Assembly: GCA_945889495.1 (NCBI GenBank)
Contig: CAMDBU010000023.1
Span: 1 to 46,054, forward strand
Direction of reading: 5' to 3'
Origin: Syntrophobacter sp. SbD2
GTDB taxonomy: Bacteria; Desulfobacterota; Binatia; UBA9968
DNA length: 46,054 bases
Shown here: positions 18,476-21,601 of the stretch, in pieces
Numbering within the stretch: the stretch's first letter is position 1
Layout: every line of letters starts with the position of its first letter
Position numbers and translations under genes: made by a program
The notes under the pieces: generated by a model
What the model was told of the DNA's origin: nothing
What the model saw: the letters and a program-made list of their open reading frames with translations, nothing else
The model's database searches: none

Positions 18476-21601
<3,126 letters not shown>

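Follow-up and report, generated by a model that had tools for sequence, protein, structure and literature searches.

The window, as we call the whole stretch of 46,054 nt from Syntrophobacter sp. SbD2 analysed here, carries a dnaE2 gene with a short palindromic repeat of the REP type lodged inside it. The features to which the analysis refers are the following.

18476..21601, plus strand: dnaE2, error-prone DNA polymerase, 1041 aa, open throughout
18830..18844, plus strand: conserved strand before the loop, residues 119-123 (alignment, model)
18861..18887, minus strand: complete CGTC-1-type REP unit, 27 nt, lodged in dnaE2
18911..18964, plus strand: conserved helix after the loop, residues 146-163 (alignment, model)
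34427..34512, no single strand: inverted pair of REP units, tags outward, the only other copy in the window

The product of the gene matched the NCBIfam model for error-prone DNA polymerase (NF004225) with 1359 bits against a cut-off of 939 over residues 2-1041, in keeping with that subfamily, and domain-level Pfam matches to the PHP, polymerase, finger, HHH and OB domains were obtained. As originally predicted, the reading frame stays open, running from 18476 to 21601 over 1041 aa. Directly upstream on the same strand, at a distance of 71 nt, lies a 3-methyladenine glycosylase I gene (17799-18404), which possibly forms one transcription unit with dnaE2. Downstream, a glycosyltransferase-like frame (21882-23042) is broken by an in-frame TAA at 22635-22637, with a Pfam Glycos_transf_1 match in the second part only, and represents either a decayed gene or a sequence error. 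The window further contains a tandem duplication (32756-33498 and 33595-34337, 839 nt apart, with aligned pieces 76-81% alike) and two more dispersed repeat families, one of the CGCAAAGGCGCCAAG type (17495-17626, 34363-34406 and 35697-35825) and a third with ATGGGTTTCGCTTCGCTCTACCCATCCTACG (6338-6374, 21653-21742 and 38310-38340), of which one copy sits just past dnaE2. Between positions 15000 and 36000 of the window, no Rfam family scored above its gathering score.

Read on the minus strand, positions 18861-18887 consist of CGTC-ATTCCGGC-GCAG-GCCGGAAT-CCA, giving, in this order, a tag of four bases, a stem of 8 bp without mismatches, a loop of 4 nt and a CCA tail. The terminal unpaired tag at 18884-18887 (GACG on the plus strand, CGTC on the minus strand) is one of those that define the CGTC-1 class of REPs (CGTC or TGTC/CCTC), and the unit also shares with that class the 8-bp stem starting with AT (ATTCCGGC and GCCGGAAT, enclosing GCAG) and the CCA tail, which appears as TGG on the plus strand at 18861-18863. 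The palindrome had been placed at 18859-18887, where it indeed lies, but the two extra bases are native and the exact unit is the 27 nt from 18861. An in-frame insert of roughly ten residues had also been claimed, and this was confirmed: the peptide derived from the unit is M129-G138, in which the first base of codon 129 and the last two of codon 138 are native. Moreover, GGAATGACG at 18879-18887 provides an ATGAC motif within a palindrome, in frame in a conserved gene, the arrangement that characterizes RPE-4, RPE-6 and RPE-7. The palindrome first noticed in dnaE2 is confirmed as an observation, and the interpretation given to it is supported.

When the window was searched with the 26-nt pattern GTCATTCCCGCGNAGGCGGGAATCCA, allowing up to three mismatches, two matches were found (18861-18886, minus strand, and 34428-34453, plus strand), while none of 100 window shuffles contained one. 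In the host genome, 135 perfect ATTCCNGCN4GCNGGAAT sites were counted, compared to 0 for the reversed-pattern control. Given these two comparisons, the palindrome in dnaE2 is not a product of chance. The DNA fold of the unit, with 8 pairs and a 4-nt loop, reached a z of -1.5, and 17 of 200 shuffles folded equally well; the case for the unit is thus its repetition and not its folding energy, a single hairpin being only mildly better than shuffles. The first unit of the pair at 34427-34512 is crossed by no frame that stays open for 40 residues on both sides. The description of the element as dispersed holds for the genome with its 135 sites, but within the window it occupies two places only.

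The position of the insert in the protein was assessed by alignment with relatives and by a structure model of DnaE2 residues 1-280, built from 38 sequences, with a pLDDT of 87 and a pTM of 0.87 overall. Both approaches agree with the prediction that the insert lies in a loop between two conserved blocks, namely the strand at residues 119-123 and the helix at residues 146-163. The Pfam PHP match stops at residue 125, ahead of the insert; alignment with E. coli Pol III alpha (residues 4-273) and the structure model nevertheless place the insert within the PHP domain, as had been proposed, and E. coli Pol III alpha was also the best solved-structure match to the model (TM 0.85). The pLDDT fell below 50 at residues 128-136 and 141-144, and this modelled disorder suggests that the loop may be surface-exposed. 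The loop was measurable at 106 loci, seven of them second copies of the same contig as judged by its length and identity, and the distance from L122 to F160 ranged from 11 to 77 residues, with 25 residues in 47 loci and 38 in the window, so the loop appears free to vary. Relatives without the repeat have an uninterrupted loop, and long loops exist also without the repeat, for example in L071 and L081. Outside residues 121-161, DnaE2 is 87% identical to that of the closest relative, G001. At 27 nt, or nine codons, the unit leaves the frame intact when inserted exactly, and a stop is absent from five of the six frames in which it can be read.

The copies examined in the host genome lie, as far as recognisable genes show, mostly outside gene bodies. 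A gene-body survey took in 106 of the 135 sites and their flanks of up to 2.5 kb (some near contig ends); copies within genes of less than about 180 residues would have escaped it. Within this survey, no recognisable gene body was found around 105 of the 106 copies, dnaE2 being the sole exception, which agrees with the earlier description of the element as usually intergenic and, together with the 135 perfect sites, with the many dispersed and mostly intergenic copies typical of CGTC-1. Fifteen of the 106 copies sit in frames of at least 180 residues with at least 30 on each side, one of these being dnaE2. Five others were rejected as in-gene insertions because the repeat precedes a plausible gene start: the Pfam domains begin at residues 68, 128, 62, 118 and 100, and the repeats lie at about residues 37, 35, 30, 50 and 47, respectively. 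For the other nine, no Pfam domain was matched at E <= 0.01, and they were set aside as well. Most copies examined in this genome are paired (pair orientation was judged by eye and not counted), with a second palindrome within 80 nt for 78 of the 106 copies; the copy in dnaE2 belongs to the 28 that lack one.

Three Y1_Tnp/RAYT-like genes (NCBIfam REP-associated tyrosine transposase) are encoded in the genome, two above the cut-off and one, with 71.3 bits, under it. No clear REP copy was found within the stretches of 4.0-4.5 kb around each of them, and a weak match with three mismatches near the second gene was set aside as chance. Judged on these Y1_Tnp/RAYT-like genes, the repeats are without a flanking transposase, as expected for CGTC-1; this is in line with PMC3733652, in the text of which CGTC REPs are described as lacking a dedicated transposase. 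In two of the RAYT-like proteins (L161 and L162, of 309 and 306 aa), the C-terminal part weakly resembles the DnaA C-terminal domain.

Among the 106 measured loci, a repeat was present in the DnaE2 loop of five, originating from four genomes. The window's genome (G000) holds a single unit and G001, of the same genus, an inverted pair. In G002, also a congener, the unit is the same as that of the window bar one tail base, and is interrupted by 24 nt. Within these 24 nt lies CCTTCGACTGAGCTCAGGACAGG, which belongs to a second dispersed family with 17 matches in G002 at up to one mismatch (0 for the reversed control), and the interrupted palindrome suggests that this second repeat inserted into the REP. 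An inverted pair CTTCGACAGGCTCAGGAC at 41539-41600 of the window resembles the same family. The fourth carrier, G017, belongs to a different genus and has an inverted pair in the loop, while its congener G010 has a standard loop. The carriers have the loop in common but not the exact insertion point: counted from a conserved GG pair, the unit starts 3 residues on in both the window and G001, while the distance is 17 residues for G017 and about 41 for G002. Each of the four carriers reads the unit, or the second unit where a pair is present, as DS-x-L-x-x-ND, setting aside the eight residues of the G002 interruption. A palindrome scan of 110 dnaE-type loci (329,541 nt, some loci being partial genes), requiring a stem of at least 7/8, AT ends and a tag of at least 3/4, found REP-type palindromes confined to this one loop; the interrupted G002 unit was missed by these criteria and was added by eye.

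Aligning the DnaE2 proteins of relatives had been suggested as a check of lineage specificity, and the insert proved not to be private to the species: all three genomes of the window's genus in which dnaE2 was found carry a loop repeat, as does one genome of another genus. In the congeners G003 and G004 no DnaE2 was detected, the matches being of only 27-36% identity. At least one perfect REP site was present in 28 of the 56 genomes searched (own included), with 0 to 678 copies per genome. No copy was seen in the dnaE2 of the REP-rich G027, G029 and G030 (362-678 copies) or G010 (141 copies), where coverage extended over residues 4-749 in G029 and 9-800 in G010, whereas G002 is a carrier despite having 0 perfect copies now. 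Abundance alone thus does not yield the insert, at least in the parts of the gene covered. Of 198 genomes sampled more widely from the phylum, 11 (own included) gave a match to the PHP domain at E <= 1e-30, and the match coordinates of the other ten gave no sign of a lengthened loop. Plasmid and phage collections gave DnaE-type matches only, all under 60% identity.

The other carriers were also surveyed for copies within genes. For G001, where 29 perfect sites were counted, the 25 units covered in 21 stretches included one in a gene body, namely dnaE2, and for G002, 12 of the 13 listed units showed no gene-body copy besides the interrupted dnaE2 unit. For G017, where 36 were counted in all, the 33 unit matches covered in 24 stretches (among which near-palindromes may count twice) included gene-body copies in dnaE2 and in a gene for a type I methylase, and in no other gene. 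Ten further repeat-bearing frames in these three genomes were rejected, with domains starting at least 31 residues after the repeat start in six and absent in four: in G001 an NMT1 domain begins after the repeat in one frame and the other is without a Pfam match, in G002 the domains of both frames come only after the repeat, and in G017 this applies to three of six frames, the other three having none. The methylase gene of G017 (L271, 5020-6813, minus strand; HsdM_N and N6_Mtase) carries an in-frame REP-like pair near its C-terminal end, with the tags inward. The pair comes after the end of the N6_Mtase match, and it was read as lying inside the gene because it is followed by a stretch that we take to be typical of such proteins.

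The elements resemble several known systems. The CGTC-1 class was described by Di Nocera et al. 2013 (PMC3733652) as having a stem of 8, a loop of 4, a CGTC or TGTC tag, a CCA tail and frequent pairs, without an associated transposase, and as including dRS3 of Neisseria and RPE-6 of Rickettsia conorii. The elements studied here are like it in anatomy, in pairing, in being mostly intergenic but sometimes in genes, and in the absence of an adjoining transposase. DnaE2 is itself named among the REP-carrying genes in that survey, which also reports a REP in DnaE of R. conorii and notes that some of these genes are the sole REP-bearing coding sequences of their species; a REP inside DnaE2 is therefore already in print as a kind (PMC3733652). 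The same text states that, with recB in Xanthomonas as the exception, the sites differ when other genes of a given functional category carry inserts, while here four genomes share one loop. The records of the nearest named relatives are titled Deltaproteobacteria, a word that is absent from the text of PMC3733652. In the open-access literature, the key supplement of PMC3733652 excluded, no earlier description was found of one DnaE2 loop being used repeatedly, nor of a repeat lying within a REP in this gene.

The parallel with Rickettsia palindromic elements drawn in the original prediction turned out to be closer than claimed, since RPE-6 of R. conorii falls in CGTC-1, a link that is based on the equation made in PMC3733652 and not on sequence comparison. 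The R. japonica genome paper (PMC3767692) reports RPE-4 and RPE-6 in DNA polymerase III alpha, where different species have them at one common site and in parts exposed to solvent; a common origin is favoured there and hotspots are left open. Both cases involve in-frame palindromes with an ATGAC motif, found in Rickettsia in the gene for DNA polymerase III alpha among others, whereas the Rickettsia inserts are 68-192 nt long and reside in the replicative polymerase (PMC3767692). The REPs and REPINs mobilised by RAYT proteins are likewise short palindromes, often in inverted pairs, and RAYT-like proteins are encoded here, but the tag is CGTC and not GTAG and no clear copy lies beside the RAYT-like genes.

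To follow the history of the insert, a DnaE2 protein tree was calculated from 20 sequences after masking residues 123-161 and removing columns in which fewer than 15 of the 20 were represented. G000, G001 and G002 formed a clade with a support of 100, and so did the pair of G017 and G010, while the nodes between the two genera had supports of 32 and 63. By parsimony the tree would imply two gains, though these intervening nodes are weak, and the second genus probably gained its REP in dnaE2 independently. Around the palindrome, the window and G002 are identical in 27 of 27 bases (the 24 extra G002 bases set aside), with one tail base differing just before. The rest of the gene agrees in 72.7% of bases and 52.2% of third positions, with four identical runs of at least 27 bases in 998 codons. 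A recent and separate arrival of the REPs in the window and in G002 is favoured by this comparison, though not proven.

The unit, the open frame, the loop and its recurrence in four genomes are direct observations, and they are probably accounted for by a CGTC-1 REP that inserted into the dnaE2 of this lineage, was tolerated, and now persists as a near-neutral, frame-preserving peptide. Some mobilising activity would have delivered the repeat to the gene, where no target duplication was identified. The insert could have been tolerated since the unit is exactly 27 nt, or nine codons, is stop-free in five of six reading frames, and would have landed in a length-variable PHP-domain loop that is modelled as disordered. 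It would now encode a presumably near-neutral peptide in an apparently working polymerase. A counterpoint to simple neutrality is that the same loop holds REPs in two genera although copies in gene bodies are so rare. This rarity (1/106 in G000 and 1/25 in G001, both dnaE2; 0/12 in G002 besides the interrupted unit; two genes among 33 matches in G017), the confinement of every such palindrome in 110 dnaE-type loci to one loop, and the breaking of the unit in G002 by a second dispersed repeat would fit a true hotspot, to which REPs and other repeats are delivered or in which they are selectively kept. Such a hotspot, which is compatible with a tolerated passenger, is conceivable but doubtful: a single insertion may be common to the three congeners, so that only two events remain, separated by nodes with supports of 32 and 63, the units are not at one exact position (3, 17 and about 41 residues past the GG), the REP-rich G027, G029, G030 and G010 have no copy in the dnaE2 parts covered, and the methylase gene of G017 indicates that other genes are hit too. 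The stronger proposal, that the loop is a recurrent and independent landing or retention site, with at least two REP acquisitions and a repeat within a repeat reflecting directed insertion or selection on an inducible mutagenic polymerase and not chance tolerance, is improbable.

A single old insertion, predating the split of the two genera and followed by precise loss in G010 and others and by decay elsewhere, would explain why loop, orientation and peptide frame are identical in all four carriers, and why the window's genus, monophyletic for dnaE2 with a support of 100, consists of carriers in all three members in which the gene was found. We consider it unlikely, as the standard loop of G010, the sister of G017 with a support of 100, requires a precise loss, which is probably needed also in the clade of G014, G020 and G023; in addition, the G017 insert and the inserts of the window and G001 begin at different places in the loop, and the 27 identical bases of the window and G002, set against 52% agreement at third positions elsewhere, look young and not old. 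An effect of the insert on polymerase function is possible. That the peptide alters DnaE2 activity and has been favoured by selection, perhaps as a mutator trait of the kind that PMC3733652 suggests for REP-carrying repair genes, is nonetheless very unlikely: REPs do recur in replication and repair genes (PMC3733652) and in dnaE2 here, but the peptides of the carriers vary in sequence and length (L122-F160 distance 38 to 77), and the loop, disordered in the model, precedes by more than 140 residues the Pfam polymerase match, which starts at 289. Finally, an assembly or binning error could be suspected, as all carriers are draft assemblies with many contigs and the dnaE2 contig of G017 has just 3,560 bases, with the gene running off its end. 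Such an error is exceedingly improbable, given that four separate assemblies hold differing in-frame, repeat-derived inserts in the same loop and that the G017 contig matches the public record JAUYJC010000565.1 in length and identity.

With a tolerated CGTC-1 insertion as the preferred reading, the dnaE2 case illustrates that a repeat of 27 nt can lengthen the coding sequence of a conserved enzyme while keeping its frame. For the CGTC REPs, the text of the 2013 survey reports no transposase (PMC3733652), and the loop states in the related genomes, comprising empty loops, a single unit, pairs and an interrupted unit, provide before-and-after pairs from which insertion boundaries could be worked out. 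If the recurrence were confirmed with further genomes, the preference of REPs for replication and repair genes, as remarked in the literature, could be tested at the level of a single loop.
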